A DNA stretch of 49,384 nt, taken from positions 1 to 49,384 of the forward strand of contig CAMDQT010000024.1 in the NCBI GenBank assembly GCA_945906305.1. Reading direction: 5' to 3'. Both the position numbers and the translations under genes were made by a program. The DNA comes from Ferrithrix thermotolerans DSM 19514. Lineage in GTDB: Bacteria > Actinomycetota > Acidimicrobiia > Acidimicrobiales > CAIXPF01. Positions 2,419 through 49,126 of the stretch are shown piece after piece. The notes beneath the pieces were generated by a model that did no database searches, had not been told where the DNA came from, and saw nothing but the letters and a program-made list of their open reading frames with translations. Numbering within the stretch: the stretch's first letter is position 1; each line of letters begins with the position of its first letter.

Positions 2419-3315
2419 ATGCGTCGTGGCCAGACCCTGCTGTTGATCGGGTTGGCCACGCTGGTTTTGAGCGGCTGTTTCCGCTACCAAAGCGCGATCT
2501 CGGTCGACGAGGACGGCTCCGGTCGAGCCCAAGAGGTGTTGCTGTTCGACCGTAGCGCTCTGGGCTCGCTGTTCGAATCCGACTCCCAAATCGACCAGCA
2601 CCTACCCCGCGCCGCGGACTTCGATCTGCCGGCTTGGGCCCACCTGCGTGACTACCGCGAAGGCCCCTTTCAGGGGGTAGTCACCGACATCGTGTTCGAT
2701 AGCCCGGAGCAACTCAATGACCGGCTGAACGCGTTGCATCTGACGCTGGTCCGCTCCGTGGGCGGCCAAGCCACCACCGAGGTGGACCTGCAGCGAGTCA
2801 GGGACGGCTGGACCTTCTCGATGCAGACCACCAAGATCGCTGAGCTGCCGCACCTACCGGGCCTGCAAGGCCCGACGAACCCCCTGCTCGGCCAGCTCTA
2901 CCACGGGGCGCAGCTGGTCCTCTCCGTGCGTCTTCCAGGCCGCGTCGTGCAGCACAACGCCGATGAGTTGGTGCACGACCAGTTCGTGTGGCGGCTATCG
3001 GCCCAATCGGTGCAAACACAAGCATTCGCCCGCACGGCAACCAGCGGTGCCTTGTCCAACTCCGTAACGACGAGTCGCCCCTGGCAGCTCGCCACTGCCG
3101 CCGCGAGCGCAGGAGGCCTCGCCGTGTTCTGCGCCGTCGCCCTCAGCCAGCGGCGCAGCCGCGCCGAGCCACCAACCGTCTCGCCGCACGGCGAACACCG
3201 AATCGGTGACCGACACCCCGAAGACCCCGGACCCCCATCGCGGTGGCCCTACCAACCTCCCGCGCAACCCCCGGGGTTGCCCCCGCGTCACGCTGACCAA
3301 CCCCCAAGTCGCTGA
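2419..3315 (+). CDS. LppM-like (DUF3153) lipoprotein with C-terminal membrane span
   Basis: A 298-residue lipoprotein precursor: basic MRRG, hydrophobic core and lipobox LSGC with Cys20 as the predicted lipidated residue. The ectodomain (about 21-210) begins YQSAISVDEDGSG and resembles the mycobacterial LppM domain (DUF3153). A second hydrophobic stretch around 218-235 is followed by RRSR and a tail of about 55 residues rich in Pro and His, which by the positive-inside rule should be cytoplasmic. The protein would therefore be tied to the membrane at both ends of its ectodomain. It starts divergently from the MhuD-like gene. A second protein with the same plan, but with a HAD-like tail, lies at 44751-46382. 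LppM in mycobacteria is linked to phagosome manipulation; here the role is unknown. Confidence 0.75.
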   Translation: MRRGQTLLLIGLATLVLSGCFRYQSAISVDEDGSGRAQEVLLFDRSALGSLFESDSQIDQHLPRAADFDLPAWAHLRDYREGPFQGVVTDIVFDSPEQLNDRLNALHLTLVRSVGGQATTEVDLQRVRDGWTFSMQTTKIAELPHLPGLQGPTNPLLGQLYHGAQLVLSVRLPGRVVQHNADELVHDQFVWRLSAQSVQTQAFARTATSGALSNSVTTSRPWQLATAAASAGGLAVFCAVALSQRRSRAEPPTVSPHGEHRIGDRHPEDPGPPSRWPYQPPAQPPGLPPRHADQPPSR

Positions 3316-39146: not shown

Positions 39147-40139
39147 TCAGGCGTCGGCGAGGTTCGGTGCCGCCGATTCGGGCCCGAGTTCCCCGCGTTG
39201 ACGCGAGATCTCGAAACAGGCGACAGCCGCCGCGGCGGCGACGTTCAGCGAATTCAACTGCCCACCGAGCGGGATCGAGGCCAACTGGGCGCAGCGTTCG
39301 CGAACCAGTCGGGAGAGTCCTTTGCCCTCCGCGCCGAACACCAGACAGACGGGCTGATCCCCCAGCGGCAGCGAATACAGCGACGTCGTCGCCGCGCCGT
39401 CAAGCCCGATCGTCCACACGCCAGCGTCGTTGAGTTGCATCAGCGTGGTCGGTAGCCCCCCAACGAGGGCCAGGCGCACATACTCGACCGCTCCGGCGGC
39501 AGCTTTGGTCACCGACGGCGTCACGTGTACGGCCCGATGGCGAGGCAGAATCACCCCCGTCACACCCGACCCTTCGGCGCTACGCAGCAAAGCACCGAGG
39601 TTGCCGGGGTCCGTCACCCCGTCAAGAGCCACCAGAAACGGTCGCGGGCCGCCGCGGCGGGTACGCAGCAAATCGTCGAGGGAGTACTCGGGCAGACTTT
39701 GGGCCCTCGCCAACACGCCCTGAGCAGACTGGGTAGCGGTGAGGGCGTCTAGGCGTGTGCGGCTGACCTCGCGTAGGGGGACACGGCGGGCGTCGCAGAG
39801 CTCCCGAATGTCCTGCAAGATCTCGGCTTCCTCGAGTTCGGCGGCCACCAACACTTCGCGGACCCGGCGCCGTCCAGCAACCAGCAACTCGCGAACAGCC
39901 TGTCGACCTTCGACCTGTTCGCCGCCGAGGCCACGACCGGCATTGGACAAGGGCGGTGCGGCAGCATCCGCTCCGCTCGCGTCGCGTCGCCGGCGAGGCG
40001 GTCCTCCCGGTCCACGACCCGCCGCACCCGCGCCACCACGACCCGCCGGACCTGTCGCGCGACCACGGCCGGAACCGGAATCCGGGCCGGGCGATCGGCC
40101 GCCCCCACGCCCTGCGCCGCGGCTGCCAGCCGTGTTCAC
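39147..40139 (-). CDS. rlmB: 23S rRNA (guanosine-2'-O)-methyltransferase RlmB-like SpoU enzyme
   Basis: A 330-residue SPOUT methyltransferase. Residues 1-70 are an Arg/Gly/Pro/Ala-rich basic extension, as in other actinobacterial RlmB proteins. Then come the substrate-binding domain (GRQAVRELLVAGRRRVREVLVA) and the SpoU knot: ALDGVTDPGNLGALLRSAEG (motif 1), LVFGAEGKGLSR (motif 2) and IPLGGQLNSLNVAAAAAV (motif 3). It methylates a guanosine in 23S rRNA with SAM. The GTG start overlaps the ispDF stop as GTGA, so translation is coupled to ispDF. Confidence 0.93.
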   Translation of the reverse strand: MNTAGSRGAGRGGGRSPGPDSGSGRGRATGPAGRGGAGAAGRGPGGPPRRRRDASGADAAAPPLSNAGRGLGGEQVEGRQAVRELLVAGRRRVREVLVAAELEEAEILQDIRELCDARRVPLREVSRTRLDALTATQSAQGVLARAQSLPEYSLDDLLRTRRGGPRPFLVALDGVTDPGNLGALLRSAEGSGVTGVILPRHRAVHVTPSVTKAAAGAVEYVRLALVGGLPTTLMQLNDAGVWTIGLDGAATTSLYSLPLGDQPVCLVFGAEGKGLSRLVRERCAQLASIPLGGQLNSLNVAAAAAVACFEISRQRGELGPESAAPNLADA

Positions 40140-41290
40140 CGGTGCTCGGAGCCGTCAGGCCCCGATGAGTCCACTATCGGGTAGAGAATCGCCACAGCAA
40201 AGCAGGCTATGCCCTCGCGGCGTCCAAGGGCGCCGAGCCCTTCGGCTCGCTTGCCCTTGACGGTCACCGGCGCCCCCACAACGGCGGAGAGGACCTGCTG
40301 CATCTCGGCCTTACGCGGCGCCAACTTTGGAGCCTCCAACACGACCGTACAGTCGACGTTTCCGGCCTGCCAGCCAGCCTGGCGCACCTGTCGGACCGCC
40401 TCCTTGAGCAACCCCAACGAGTCCGCGCCGGCTAGGGACGGGTCGGTATCGGGAAAGAGTTGCCCGATATCGCCCAGGCCCGCCGCACCAAGCAAGGCAT
40501 CAGTCACCGCATGGGCGATCGCATCGGCGTCGCTGTGGCCTTCAAGGCCGGGCTCCCCCTCGAACAGCACCCCACCGAGCACCAAAGCACGGCCATGGTC
40601 GCGGCTGAAGCGATGCACGTCGAAGCCCTGACCGACACGAATTCTCATCGACTGCTCCTCCCGGGGGTGTCGACGCGCCAGCAACGCTTCGGCCACCTTC
40701 AAGTCATCGGCCGCGGTGATCTTCAGATTCGCCGGATCTCCGCTGACCACGACGACGGCATGGCCGGCAAGCTCCACCAAGGTGGCATCGTCGGACGCTT
40801 CGGCACCCGACGCATGGGCCAGGCGAAGGGTCGCTCCGTCGAATGCCTGTGGTGTCTGCACCCTCACCACTGCGTCCCGATCCAGGACACCGCCTTGGCG
40901 GTGACGGATGCTGTCCACCACCGCCACACCAGGCAACGCGGCCACCGCGCCGGCCCGTACCGCGGCGATGACTGCCGCGAAGAGTTGCGGACCAGCGAGC
41001 GGGCGGGCGGCATCGTGGACCACCACCACCTCCGTATCGGGGGGGACCGCGGCCAGCCCGGCGCGGACTGAAGCGGACCGGGTGTCACCTCCTGCCACGA
41101 CAATGTCCACGCCAGGTTCATCGTGGTACACAAAATCGGGATGCACCACCAGCACTACCCCGTCGGCATAGGTCTGGGATGCCTCGATCGACCAGTCCAG
41201 TACCCGACGACCGGCCAACTGCGCATACTGTTTCGCGCCACCGAAACGAACGCCGCTGCCTGCTGCCACTACGATGACCCATACCCTCAT
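40136..41290 (-). CDS. ispDF: Bifunctional IspD-IspF (MEP isoprenoid pathway)
   Basis: A 384-residue fusion. The IspD part (about 1-215) has the CTP-binding AAGSGVRFGGAKQYAQL, HDAARPL and TPQAF segments. The IspF part (from about 222) has RVGQGFDVHRF (metal ligands Asp-x-His), GLEGHSDADAIAHAVTDALLGA and DIGQLFPDTDP. Together they make 4-diphosphocytidyl-methylerythritol and 2-C-methylerythritol 2,4-cyclodiphosphate; IspE, the step between, is not here. Start chosen at ATG 41290, where IspD proteins normally begin; ATG 41296 and a longer frame to 41389 are alternatives. Coupled to rlmB. Divergent from a Crp-type regulator. Confidence 0.95.
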   Translation of the reverse strand: MRVWVIVVAAGSGVRFGGAKQYAQLAGRRVLDWSIEASQTYADGVVLVVHPDFVYHDEPGVDIVVAGGDTRSASVRAGLAAVPPDTEVVVVHDAARPLAGPQLFAAVIAAVRAGAVAALPGVAVVDSIRHRQGGVLDRDAVVRVQTPQAFDGATLRLAHASGAEASDDATLVELAGHAVVVVSGDPANLKITAADDLKVAEALLARRHPREEQSMRIRVGQGFDVHRFSRDHGRALVLGGVLFEGEPGLEGHSDADAIAHAVTDALLGAAGLGDIGQLFPDTDPSLAGADSLGLLKEAVRQVRQAGWQAGNVDCTVVLEAPKLAPRKAEMQQVLSAVVGAPVTVKGKRAEGLGALGRREGIACFAVAILYPIVDSSGPDGSEHR

Positions 41291-41382
41291 AGCCATCCCC
41301 CCGGCACTAGTTTGGCCGCGAGATTCTGATGGATATTCGACTGATCCGTTGCGGACAGTCGGTAACGAGCGGGAGGCATCGA

Positions 41383-42048
41383 GTGGCACCGGCTGACAGT
41401 GGACTGCTGCGTAACACCGAGCTTTTCCGCGATCTCGATCCCGACCTGTTGGAACGGCTGTTTCGTCAGGCCACCCAGCGACGCATCCACCGAGGCGACG
41501 TGCTCTTCAACGAAGGCGAGGAGGCTGACGAGCTGTTCGTGGTATCTACCGGTCGCATCGCCATCGCCAACCGGTCCGCCGACGGGCGTGAGTCGGTCAT
41601 CGCGTTGATGGAGTCCGGCGATCTTTTCGGTGAGATGCCGCTGTTCGATGGGATGGGCCGGTCCGCCGAGGCCCGCGCCCTCACGACCGCCGAGGTCGTG
41701 GCGTTGCCCTATGACCCAATCCGGACGCTGTACGACGAACACCCCAGGCTGTTGTGGGAAGTGGTCGACCTGCTGGCAAGACGTCTGCGAGTCGCGGACG
41801 AGGCGCTTGCTGACTCGGTGTTCCTCGACGTCACCGGCCGGACGGCCAAACGGCTGCTGGAGATGGCAGGCGACGCGGACGAGTTCGTGTTGCCGGTCAC
41901 TCAAGAGGAACTCGCCGGTATGGTCGGCGCCTCCCGCGAACGAGTGAACAAGGCCATCGCCAGCTTCATCCGGCTGGGCTGGATCGAGCAGGGCGACCGC
42001 AAGTACCTCATCACCGATCGCGAGCAGTTGGCAAACCGCTCCCGCTGA
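41383..42048 (+). CDS. Crp/Fnr-family transcriptional regulator
   Basis: A 221-residue regulator. The GTG at 41383 has GGAGG six bases upstream, which decides it over the ATG at 41329. Residues about 5-125 form the cyclic-nucleotide-binding beta barrel (LFNEGEEADELFVVSTGRIAI ... ESGDLFGEMPLFDG ... RSAEARALT), with the GEM/L and Arg-Ser-Ala pattern of true cAMP binders. The C-terminal winged helix has VTQEELAGMVGASRERVNKAIASFIRLGWIE. It resembles actinobacterial Crp (GlxR-like). It is divergent from ispDF and converges with disA. Binding sites were not identified here. Confidence 0.92.
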   Translation: MAPADSGLLRNTELFRDLDPDLLERLFRQATQRRIHRGDVLFNEGEEADELFVVSTGRIAIANRSADGRESVIALMESGDLFGEMPLFDGMGRSAEARALTTAEVVALPYDPIRTLYDEHPRLLWEVVDLLARRLRVADEALADSVFLDVTGRTAKRLLEMAGDADEFVLPVTQEELAGMVGASRERVNKAIASFIRLGWIEQGDRKYLITDREQLANRSR

Positions 42049-44750: not shown

Positions 44751-46382
44751 TCAAGTCGTCGGTGTCGACGTACCCGGTCGGATTCCCTCGGCGAAACTTC
44801 GCAGCACCGCGTGTTCGCTCACCACGTCGTTCGGGGCCGGGCTGTATCGCACAGTACGGAAGCCGAGCGGGCCGGCCACGTCGAGCAAGTTGGGGTGCCA
44901 TGCAATCACCAAGGCCTTCGACGGTGGGGCCACGCTGATGCGCCGCACTGCCTCGAACAAGTCTGGGTGGGGCACTCGAACACCGACATCAGCGCTGCAG
45001 ATCCAGGCGTCGACGAGGCCATCGAGGTTGAAGCGTTGGCGGATCGTGGTGGCCCATTCGGGCACGCCGTCCCCCATCACTACCACTGGCACCCCGCGGT
45101 CACGAGCCTGTTCGAGGAAGCTGACCACCTGCTCGGAAAGCTCGAATTGACGGGCATAGACATCATCGATCCAACGGGGATCGCCAGCTACCCCGAGGTC
45201 GGACCAGAACTGCGCGCCCGTTCGATTCCCGAGGATACGGGCCCCATACAGCTCGTGGATCTGCGGCTGGGACAACGTACAACCGCGTTCACGACAGAAG
45301 GCGGCCAGGACCGCGTCCACCGGGTTCGCCTCGGACAGCAACGCACCGTGCAACTCGATCACGATGAGCCCCAGACCTCCAGCAGACGTCTGTCTGGGGC
45401 TGGACAGCGGCGGGGTTCGGACCGGACCGGACCTCCCCCCGTCCACACCAACCCTGGACGGTGCCCGCCGAGCGGCAGGCGAGGCCTCCCATCGGGCAAT
45501 CAGACGTCGGCGACGCCATCGAGCAAACGCGAACCATCCCAGTCGCCACGACAACACCGACAGCCCGACCCCGCCCGCCGCCACACCGCTCCAATGCCAC
45601 AGCTTTTCCTGTAGTTGGGCCGAGGAGGACGTCGCCAGCAACTCGCTCGGGGCACGATCGGCGAAGGATGGATTCCAGACCACGGCAGGGGCCCGCACTA
45701 CGTCGCCATCCACTGTGCCGGGGTGCTCACTCGGCTGCGGCGAAGATGGGTGCGGGCCGTCTACGGCCACCACGGCCTGGCCAGACATCCCCACGATGCC
45801 GTTGTGAGCGCCCAGGTCACCGGGCAAGTCCACGATGACATTGATCGACACCAGGTGCTCGAGCGGGGAACCCAGTTGGCTGGCAAACGACTCGGCCGGT
45901 TGGCCTAAAGCCTGGCCACCGAATGCGGCCGCTACGGCGTCGTCGCTCAGGGCGGCCAGGCCCTTGGTGAGATCGACCGTACCGGAGAACCGCCAGCTCC
46001 TCTGCCTGTCACCAGAGCTGTGCTGCACGGCAAAGTTGCGCAACGGACCATCGACCCCGGCGACCTCGTCCACTACCGCGCTGAGCTGATCAAGTTGCGA
46101 GAACGGCTTGGCGGCGCGAATCCAACTACGACCATCAGACTCCTGGGTCGGCCCGGTCACTCGCCAACCAGCGGCACGAAGGTCCTCCAAGGGGAGCACA
46201 CCGCCGGCCCTGGTCTCATAGAGCACCGTGCGATTGGCGGCGTCCGGATCGAGTGCGACCGCGACGTACACGGTCCCATCTCCGGCCTCAGCGACGTGGA
46301 TTTCAAGGAACGCATCCGCCTTGCAACCAACGAGCAACACAAGCGCCAGTGCGGTCAGCAGGAGGGAAACCACACGGCGCAC
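44751..46382 (-). CDS. LppM-like lipoprotein fused through a membrane helix to a degenerate HAD-like domain
   Basis: A 543-residue protein. Lipobox LLVGC with Cys20; ectodomain about 21-255 with an LppM/DUF3153-like start; transmembrane helix about 263-286; Arg-rich stop-transfer WRRRRLIARW; then a cytoplasmic HAD-like fold about 338-512. The HAD motifs are all altered: DxD is ELH (Glu343, His345), the Ser/Thr strand reads VVVMGDG, the motif III Lys is Val470 in VRVPHPDLF, and motif IV GD is Ala494-Trp495 in IAWHPNLLD. It is therefore probably not a phosphatase but a binding domain. GTG start with TAGGTT six bases upstream. It lies between clpC and radA on the same strand. No characterised fusion of this kind is known to me. 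Confidence 0.8.
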   Translation of the reverse strand: MRRVVSLLLTALALVLLVGCKADAFLEIHVAEAGDGTVYVAVALDPDAANRTVLYETRAGGVLPLEDLRAAGWRVTGPTQESDGRSWIRAAKPFSQLDQLSAVVDEVAGVDGPLRNFAVQHSSGDRQRSWRFSGTVDLTKGLAALSDDAVAAAFGGQALGQPAESFASQLGSPLEHLVSINVIVDLPGDLGAHNGIVGMSGQAVVAVDGPHPSSPQPSEHPGTVDGDVVRAPAVVWNPSFADRAPSELLATSSSAQLQEKLWHWSGVAAGGVGLSVLSWRLGWFAFARWRRRRLIARWEASPAARRAPSRVGVDGGRSGPVRTPPLSSPRQTSAGGLGLIVIELHGALLSEANPVDAVLAAFCRERGCTLSQPQIHELYGARILGNRTGAQFWSDLGVAGDPRWIDDVYARQFELSEQVVSFLEQARDRGVPVVVMGDGVPEWATTIRQRFNLDGLVDAWICSADVGVRVPHPDLFEAVRRISVAPPSKALVIAWHPNLLDVAGPLGFRTVRYSPAPNDVVSEHAVLRSFAEGIRPGTSTPTT

Positions 46383-46388
46383 GGCCCC

Positions 46389-46394
46389 AACCTA
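46389..46394 (-). promoter_or_regulatory. -10 box TAGGTT, leaderless lipoprotein/HAD-like gene
   Basis: TAGGTT ends six bases before the GTG at 46382. A TTGACG lies 22 bp further upstream, too far for a standard -35. Confidence 0.5.
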
Positions 46395-46457
46395 GACGCC
46401 GCATCAAAGCCCAACGCGTCAAACCCGGAGGCGATGAAGACGGGCGGGTCGGACAAA

Positions 46458-46492
46458 GAATGAGGCCCCGGAACACGTCCGGGGCCTCATTC
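46458..46492 (-). terminator. Rho-independent terminator of clpC
   Basis: A perfect 15-bp stem (GAATGAGGCCCCGGA and its complement) with a five-base loop begins 24 bp after the clpC stop. On the minus strand it is followed by TTTG. It separates clpC from the next minus-strand gene. Confidence 0.9.
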
Positions 46493-46516
46493 CTTCTCAG
46501 GTTCCGCCTACGGCGA

Positions 46517-49039
46517 TCAGCTATCGGCCGGCCCGGCCTCGGCCAGCTCAAGAGGTGGTGGCTCCAGTCCTTCCACCGTCCGGAACACGATGTGCGGCTT
46601 GTCATTGTTCTCTGGATCAGGCTCAACATCGACGATGATTCGCTCGCCGGCCCGGAACTCTTTCCACAGCAACCGCTCGGACAACGGGTCTTCCACGAAT
46701 CGCTGGATGGCCCGGCGCAGCGGACGAGCACCGAGGGTGGGGTCGTAGCCGACATCGGCTAGGTGCACCTTGGCCTCGTGGGTCAACTCGATGCCGATCC
46801 CCTGGGCCTCGAGTTGTTTCGCAACCCGCTTCATCATCAAATCAACGATGCGCGTGACCTCGGCCTGGGACAGCTCATGGAAGACGATGACCTCGTCGAT
46901 TCGGTTGAGGAACTCCGGCCGGAAGTGCTGCTTGAGCGCTTCGTTGACCTTCTCCTTCATCCGGACGTAGCTCACCGCCTCGTCGCCGCGGGTGAATCCC
47001 AACGACGCCTTGCGCAGGTCCTGGGTACCAAGGTTGGAGGTCATGATCAACACCGTGTTGCGGAAGTCGACCGAACGGCCCTGACTGTCGGTCAGGCGAC
47101 CTTCCTCCAAGATCTGCAGGAGGGTGTTGAACACGTCGGGATGGGCCTTTTCGATTTCGTCGAACAGCACCACCGAGAACGGCTTGCGCCGCACTGCCTC
47201 GGTCAGCTGACCACCCTCGTCGTAACCGACGTAGCCGGGAGGTGAGCCCACCAGCCGACTGACCGTGTGCTTCTCCATGTACTCGGACATGTCGAGGCTG
47301 ATCAAGGCCTGCTCGTCGCCGAAGAGAAACTCCGTGAGCGACTTGGCAAGCTCGGTCTTACCGACGCCGGACGGGCCGAGAAAGATAAACGAGCCCGATG
47401 GACGCTTTGGATCCTTGAGGCCTGCCCGGGTTCGGCGAATGGCTTGAGACACCGACTTCACCGCGTCGAACTGGCCGATGATGCGGTGATGGAGTTCGTC
47501 TTCCATCCGGAGCAACTTGGCGGTCTCTTCTTCGGTGAGCTTGTACACCGGGATGCCCGTCCAAATCGACAGCACTTCCGCGATGGCCTCTTCGTCGACC
47601 TCGTCGAAGAGGTCCACGCCGTTGGCCTTGATCTCGGCTTCGAGCACCTCCTTGCGGGCGAGGAGTTCTTTCTCCTCATCGCGCAAGTGGCTCGCTTCTT
47701 CGAAGCGCTGCGCCTCGACCGCTTCCTTCTTGCGCCGCACGACATCGGCGATCTCGTTCTCAAGGGACTTGTGGTCCGGCGGGGTCTGCATGCGCTTGAT
47801 GCGCAAACGGCTACCGGCCTCGTCGATCAGGTCAATCGCCTTGTCGGGTAGCTGCCGATCGGCGATATAACGATCTGCCAGGTTGGCCGCCGCCACCAGC
47901 GCCTGATCAGTGATGGTCACCCGGTGGTGGGTCTCGTACCGCTCGCGCAGGCCCTTGAGGATCTCGATGGTGTGTGCCACCGAAGGCTCATCCACCTTGA
48001 TGGGCTGGAAGCGCCGCTCAAGGGCGGCGTCCTTCTCGAGGTGCTTGCGGTACTCGTCGGTCGTCGTCGCGCCGATGGTCTGCAACTCGCCCCGAGCCAG
48101 CATTGGCTTGAGGATGGAGGCCGCGTCGATGGCGCCTTCGGCGGCGCCAGCACCCACCAGGGTGTGCAACTCGTCGATGAACAGGATGATGTCACCGCGG
48201 GTCTTGATCTCCTTGAGCACCTTCTTGAGGCGTTCCTCGAAATCACCGCGATAGCGCGAGCCAGCGACAAGAGCACCGAGATCGAGCGTGTAGAGCTGCT
48301 TATTTTGCAACGTCTCGGGCACCGCGTTCTTGGCGATGGCCTGGGCCAGGCCTTCCACGATTGCCGTCTTGCCGACGCCCGGCTCGCCGATGAGCACCGG
48401 GTTGTTCTTGGTCCGACGGCTCAGAACCTGCATGACCCGCTCGGTCTCGCGCTCGCGGCCGATGACCGGGTCGAGTGCGTTGTCACGGGCCAACTGGGTG
48501 AGGTTCCGCCCGAACTGGTCGAGCACGAGCGAGCCGGATGGCTGTTGCTCGGTGGCGGATGCCTGGGCCGGACCACCAGTTTTCTCGGGCTGTCCCGGAC
48601 CGGAATACCCCGACAACAACTGGATCACCTGCTGGCGGACCCGAGATAGGTCCGCGCCAAGCTTGACCAGCACCTGAGCGGCCACGCCCTCACCCTCACG
48701 GATGAGGCCGAGGAGTATGTGCTCGGTACCGATGTAGTTGTGACCGAGTTGTAGCGCTTCGCGCAGAGACAGCTCGAGCACTTTCTTGGCTCGCGGCGTA
48801 AACGGGATGTGGCCCGACGGCGAAGACCCACCCTGGCCGATGATTTCTTCGACCTGGTGACGCACGGCCTCCAAAGAGATGCCGAGCGACTCGAGGGCCT
48901 TGGCTGCCACCCCCTCGCCCTCATGAATCAGCCCGAGCAGGATGTGCTCGGTGCCGATGTAATTATGGTTCAGCAGCCGCGCTTCTTCCTGTGCCAGGAC
49001 GACAACACGGCGTGCTCTGTCGGTGAACCGTTCGAACAA
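46517..49039 (-). CDS. clpC: ClpC AAA+ unfoldase
   Basis: An 840-residue ClpC. Start is TTG at 49039: the product begins with [20 protein letters not shown] (family MFERFTD), and GGAGG lies seven bases upstream; the longer frame to 49078 is not coding. Two N-domain repeats ([13 protein letters not shown] twice), D1 Walker [14 protein letters not shown], the middle coiled-coil with a UVR-like stretch ([19 protein letters not shown]), and D2 Walker [13 protein letters not shown] are in order. It unfolds substrates for ClpP and is usually essential in actinobacteria. Length agrees with mycobacterial ClpC1 (about 848). A strong terminator follows. The upstream leader has nested inverted repeats. 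Confidence 0.97.
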
Positions 49040-49072
49040 AGTCCTGCCTCCCACGAGGGGGTGGTTTCGGTG

Positions 49073-49126
49073 AACCAAAGTCTATCTGTGAATGGCCCCT
49101 CCGCACGATCGGAGAGGACTTTGGTT
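49073..49126. repeat. Nested inverted repeats upstream of clpC
   Basis: Outer arms AACCAAAGTC (49073-49082) and GACTTTGGTT (49117-49126) are perfect complements 34 bp apart. Between them CTCCG-CACGAT-CGGAG (49099-49114) is a smaller inverted repeat. The structure begins 34 bp before the TTG start. It could be a pair of operator half-sites or an RNA hairpin in the clpC leader. It does not match the ClgR or HAIR consensus that I know. Confidence 0.6.

Follow-up and report, generated by a model that had tools for sequence, protein, structure and literature searches.

A clpC-adjacent lipoprotein gene in Ferrithrix thermotolerans joins an LppM-like ectodomain to a degenerate HAD domain

The window analysed here, a stretch of 49,384 nucleotides of contig CAMDQT010000024.1 from Ferrithrix thermotolerans DSM 19514, carries a lipoprotein gene flanked by clpC (46517-49078) and, on the other side, by radA-disA. 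A preliminary description of this DNA had placed an open reading frame between these neighbours and had read its product as a lipoprotein ectodomain joined across the membrane to a HAD-like domain. Both the position and the frame were confirmed exactly, and the strand, which had not been given, proved to be minus. The proposed order of parts (lipobox, ectodomain, helix, Arg stop-transfer, HAD) likewise holds, with the LVGC motif ending in Cys20 and the stretch R288-R297 evident in the sequence and the helix in the structural model. The protein opens with a type II signal peptide of the Lgt/LspA type, having its lipobox at residues 17-20, and a lipobox-like Cys occurs at the matching place in every homologue with a readable N-terminus. 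Beyond disA, judged by eye from translations, the frame at 40136-41389 on the minus strand reads as an IspD-IspF fusion, and a frame at 41329-42048 on the plus strand resembles a CRP/FNR-type cyclic-nucleotide-binding regulator, lying on the opposite strand between disA and the IspDF-like gene.

Table 1. Features of the lipoprotein gene and its upstream region, with positions in the window.
Feature	Position	Strand	Basis
Whole gene, 543 aa, GTG start	44751..46382	-	sequence; continuous homologues
Signal peptide, lipobox L17-V-G-C20 (type II signal)	46323..46382	-	sequence; Cys in homologues
Extracytoplasmic LppM-like domain and stalk, residues 21-256	45615..46322	-	Z 12.7 to 2nc8; PF21946 in 24/73 homologues
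Transmembrane helix, residues 257-287, one internal Arg	45522..45614	-	models; hydropathy; positive-inside count
Arg-rich stop-transfer R288-R297	45492..45521	-	sequence; charge bias across homologues
Disordered linker, residues 298-334, length variable, weak constraint	45381..45491	-	pLDDT <50; dN/dS 0.44-0.67
Degenerate HAD subfamily-IA domain, residues 335-539	44766..45380	-	PF00702, model, structure matches, motif alignment
Motif I: E343-L-H345 replaces D-x-D	45348..45356	-	alignment of fused HADs
Motif II: G437 replaces T/S	45072..45074	-	alignment of fused HADs
Motif III: V470 replaces K	44973..44975	-	alignment of fused HADs
Motif IV: A494-W495 replaces DD	44898..44903	-	alignment of fused HADs
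W393, invariant in 38/38 fused HADs	45204..45206	-	alignment of fused HADs
W443, invariant in 38/38 fused HADs	45054..45056	-	alignment of fused HADs
18-bp hairpin with 5-nt loop after clpC, terminator-like	46455..46495	-	folding; comparable hairpins in three congeners
GCGTCTA..TT.GG element ending at GTG, TAGGTT 6 nt before start	46383..46399	-	conserved in all four (window and three congeners)

The gene neighbourhood recurs widely. Of the loci with at least 600 bases upstream, 33 of 35 that encode the fusion and 38 of 44 that encode the ectodomain only have clpC in front of the gene, in the same orientation. Of those with at least 1000 bases downstream, 25 of 38 fusion loci and 38 of 42 ectodomain-only loci have radA or disA behind it, again co-oriented. 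A strict clpC-gene-radA-disA order everywhere is contradicted by these counts. The element ending at the start codon may, to judge from its sequence, be a leaderless-type promoter, and together with the hairpin it suggests that clpC and the lipoprotein gene are transcribed separately. Because of this apparent separation, gene order alone does not make ClpC a partner of the protein. A simple pattern scan returned neither a sigma-70 promoter nor a terminator, its T-run rule missing the hairpin that is seen by folding.

Modelled together with its helix (73 homologues), the beta ectodomain reached a pLDDT of 87.8 and a pTM of 0.81. The model resembles the NMR structure of Mycobacterium tuberculosis LppM (2nc8) with a Z score of 12.7 and an rmsd of 4.2 over 154 residues, the next entry scoring Z 7.2, and the ectodomain is accordingly predicted to adopt the LppM domain fold. 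The corresponding Pfam family, PF21946, was detected in 24 of the 73 homologues (best E 3e-7); the window ectodomain is not among them and matched no Pfam family up to E 0.1. An ectodomain profile run against PDB sequences retrieved membrane-helix noise only; the LppM identity comes from the fold and from Pfam, and on these two lines of evidence the earlier assignment as LppM-like stands. M. tuberculosis LppM has been reported to bind phosphatidyl-myo-inositol mannoside (PMC6151718) and to matter for phagosome arrest (PMC6151718, PMC2936551); neither of these papers mentions a HAD for it. Like LppM (Rv2171; PF21946; 2nc8), the window protein is a lipoprotein with the same ectodomain fold, but its ectodomain is too diverged for PF21946, it adds a cytoplasmic HAD, and its gene adjoins clpC. 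A second LppM-like lipoprotein, lacking a HAD, is encoded in the window at 2419-3315 on the plus strand, with the lipobox LSGC and a helix plus Arg near the C-terminus; at 25.2 bits against a cut-off of 27, it was the only PF21946 match of the genome search.

Of 81 homologues, 80 have a distinctly hydrophobic helix behind the ectodomain. The exception is the window protein, which alone falls under the hydropathy threshold used, at 1.19 and with an internal Arg whose position is common to its congeners. Across 80 homologues, the mean net charge of the 15 residues after the helix is +4.1 as compared to +0.5 before it, and 77 homologues have more K/R after the helix than before. This charge pattern would place the HAD domain in the cytoplasm (C-in) and the LppM domain outside.

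In an AlphaFold2 model of the whole protein (mean pLDDT 78.9; 14 homologues), a long helix at residues 257-298 leads through a disordered linker (298-334) into a C-terminal domain (335-539) predicted at a pLDDT of about 95. The best structural match of this domain in Foldseek and VIA-align was 3cnh (Z 19.6, rmsd 2.6, 189 residues), many further HADs matched at Z 18-19, and the matches belong to subfamily IA, whose Rossmann-like core with a helical cap the window domain shares. With PF00702 scoring 31.5 bits against a gathering score of 26.4, the HAD-like fold that had been proposed is well established, and structure prediction, the check that had been suggested for the C-terminal part, returned a HAD. 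The domain is alike in fold throughout (Z about 19) to subfamily IA HADs (PF00702; TIGR01509 HAD-SF-IA-v3; 3cnh; L-2-haloacid dehalogenase 1jud/1zrm), and less derived fused HADs exceed the TIGR01509 cut-off. In contrast to subfamily IA enzymes, however, the window domain is tethered to a lipoprotein and contains none of the catalytic elements of HADs, namely the D-x-D motif, the T/S, the K/R and the acidic pair. Alignment with the other fused HADs verified the replacements at motifs I, III and IV listed in the preliminary description and added the loss of motif II. The claim that every motif is altered applies to the window genus and family, but not to the fusion family as a whole: in 13 of 38 fused HADs the sole loss is that of the second Asp in motif I.

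The best-matching named contigs came from metagenome-assembled genomes of Acidimicrobiia/Acidimicrobiales. Searching with P0001 gave matches in 131 of 198 Acidimicrobiales genomes, and a less derived fused HAD (L006), used as query, found exactly one match each in 58 of the 198, spread over 14 families. These matches lie in frames of fusion length except in G172 (190 aa), G004 (379 aa; cut by the contig end) and G183 (461 aa; broken near unread bases). At the G183 locus (L083, 2-4930), ectodomain and HAD occupy separate frames near the unread bases, and in L005 (1507-3270) unread bases precede the helix; both breaks are probably assembly gaps and not real splits. The search for the same fusion elsewhere thus returned continuous frames in 14 families and not two frameshifted genes. 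That the fusion is an artefact of sequencing or assembly, or two genes joined by a frameshift, can be given practically no credence: the same uninterrupted frame sits beside clpC in independent assemblies from many families, nothing was found in favour of such an error, and order genomes without the fusion hold no separate HAD gene of the fused type (E 1e-12, 198 genomes). HAD absence was judged by a profile of residues 336-532 plus the L006 search of order genomes; matches of the "hadall" profile to ectodomain-only frames are no evidence of a HAD, as this profile held some ectodomain columns.

Other families encode the ectodomain and helix only, and no HAD frame adjoins the gene in ectodomain-only loci. 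Ectodomain-only forms in other orders of the class Acidimicrobiia occupy the same locus, so that the HAD was probably added later to an ectodomain gene already lying beside clpC. A HAD tree, limited to the 212 of 601 columns in which at least 30% of rows have a residue, separates the fused HADs as one clade from the free ones (SH-aLRT 88). The ectodomain tree implies six changes between fused and unfused states, and a topology with all fused forms in one group is not rejected (p-AU 0.29). In light of these two results, several independent fusions are unneeded; one gain followed by losses fits the trees without being forced by them, and the architecture seems to have arisen when a D-x-M-G HAD was joined once to the lipoprotein. 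Such HADs, single-domain proteins from other Actinomycetota lineages (L130, L131, L121), are the nearest free-standing relatives of the fused clade. Their motif I, like that of the fused HADs, is already without its second Asp, but unlike the window domain they stand alone and keep the nucleophile, T/S, K and DD. In L130 (1042-1638, plus strand) and L131, which stem from the same genomes as L108 and L107, the free HAD gene lies between carA-like and carB-like genes.

Within the fused clade, the active site has been eroded to very different degrees. The position two residues after the nucleophile of motif I is Asp in 0 of 38 fused HADs, being occupied instead by M, H, P, L, N, R, I, A, S, V or W, and its column ranks 188th of 193 in conservation. 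The nucleophile position itself holds D in 20 sequences, G in nine, E in five, N in three and H in one, while T/S is kept in 20, K in 20 and the second Asp of motif IV in 16 of the 38. On a tree built without the motif columns, these patterns require at least four state changes for the nucleophile, five for K and eight for T/S. The 13 fused HADs mentioned above retain the nucleophile, T/S, K and the first Asp of motif IV, and from these sequences it appears that catalysis may persist in some fused lineages. One might accordingly regard the fused HAD as still an enzyme, working by an unusual mechanism without the second Asp of motif I, and the window family as a local exception, the more so as the nearest free HADs (D-A-M-G or D-V-M-G) keep T/S, K and DD. 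We consider this improbable, however, because the window protein has neither nucleophile nor T/S, K or DD, and because the nucleophile was changed repeatedly on the tree while the domain was retained.

The loss of catalytic residues is set against marked conservation elsewhere in the domain. G385, W393, W443 and L500 are invariant in all 38 fused HADs, and E477, R481, P471, H524 and F530 are each found in 37. Pairwise dN/dS within the genus, a rough measure because synonymous sites are near saturation in wider pairs, was 0.16-0.32 for the HAD and 0.16-0.34 for the ectodomain, as compared to 0.44-0.67 for the linker. That the HAD is a decaying passenger without function might be read from the piecemeal loss of its active-site residues and from its absence in many relatives, possibly by loss. 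This reading is nevertheless largely refuted and must be rated very improbable, given that the frames are open in 14 families and that the low dN/dS and the invariant non-catalytic residues speak against decay of the domain.

W393 and W443 also occur in the three nearest free HADs, whereas R481 and H524 do not, which makes these two near-invariant residues candidates for a contact specific to the fused form. They also bear on a further alternative, in which the HAD would serve only as a structural spacer or for dimerisation, neither signalling nor contacting anything outside its own protein. The absence of the domain from many lineages and the long, variable linker would agree with such a role, but R481, H524 and the invariant Trp residues suggest a specific contact, although this could be a self-contact, and we regard a mere spacer as rather unlikely.

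Our analysis computed the lipobox, the LppM fold, the single helix, the HAD fold, the locus, the selection and the loss of the active site; on this basis, we somewhat favour a bitopic lipoprotein of the LppM type, with a cytoplasmic HAD that acts by binding and not by catalysis. The lipid anchor and the helix would keep the LppM domain at the membrane, and there it may bind an envelope lipid or glycolipid, a role transferred by analogy from M. tuberculosis LppM. On the cytoplasmic side, the HAD, having presumably lost catalysis in the window lineage, would act as a binding module, either for a protein that docks on it or for a small ligand lodged in its old pocket, and binding on one side of the membrane could thereby be tethered or reported to the other. 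The protein thus probably senses or docks and does not catalyse. The earlier suggestion of a transmembrane protein that signals or docks, and does not catalyse, gains support from the repeated erosion of the active site under purifying selection, signalling as such being something that we infer. Several observations count against the binding reading: the 13 of 38 HADs with most catalytic residues, the many lineages without a HAD, the hairpin and promoter element, the presence of radA or disA at only 25 of 38 loci, and the weakly hydrophobic helix of the window protein. ClpC, RadA and DisA as partners are guesses from position only, and any direction of signal is likewise a guess. It is a doubtful, speculative extension that the protein is a transmembrane pseudoenzyme receptor whose LppM domain senses an envelope lipid and whose pseudo-HAD relays this to neighbouring-gene products in the cytoplasm, either those for protein quality (ClpC) or those for DNA integrity (RadA-DisA and c-di-AMP). 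A parallel in working principle is offered by animal receptor-type phosphatases (PMC9640194, PMC7320164): the D2 pseudophosphatase domain of PTPRK is described as recruiting a substrate, and PTPRK (by its D2 domain) and PTPRU likewise combine an outer binding domain with an inactive inner phosphatase-fold domain. These proteins are eukaryotic and have the PTP and not the HAD fold, and we claim no homology.

The window protein is a new architecture built from known parts. Among open-licence PMC papers on the LppM domain, on clpC-radA-disA with a lipoprotein and on HAD pseudoenzymes, we found no report of an LppM-HAD fusion; within this literature the fusion, the lineage series of active-site loss and the near-constant clpC neighbour appear to be unreported. 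The series follows one fused HAD from a near-complete to a wholly lost active site, while the fold persists together with a few non-catalytic residues, so that what a pseudoenzyme conserves becomes directly testable. At the same time, the poorly understood LppM domain gains an output module in the cytoplasm and a nearly constant neighbouring gene, and these make its role approachable outside mycobacteria.
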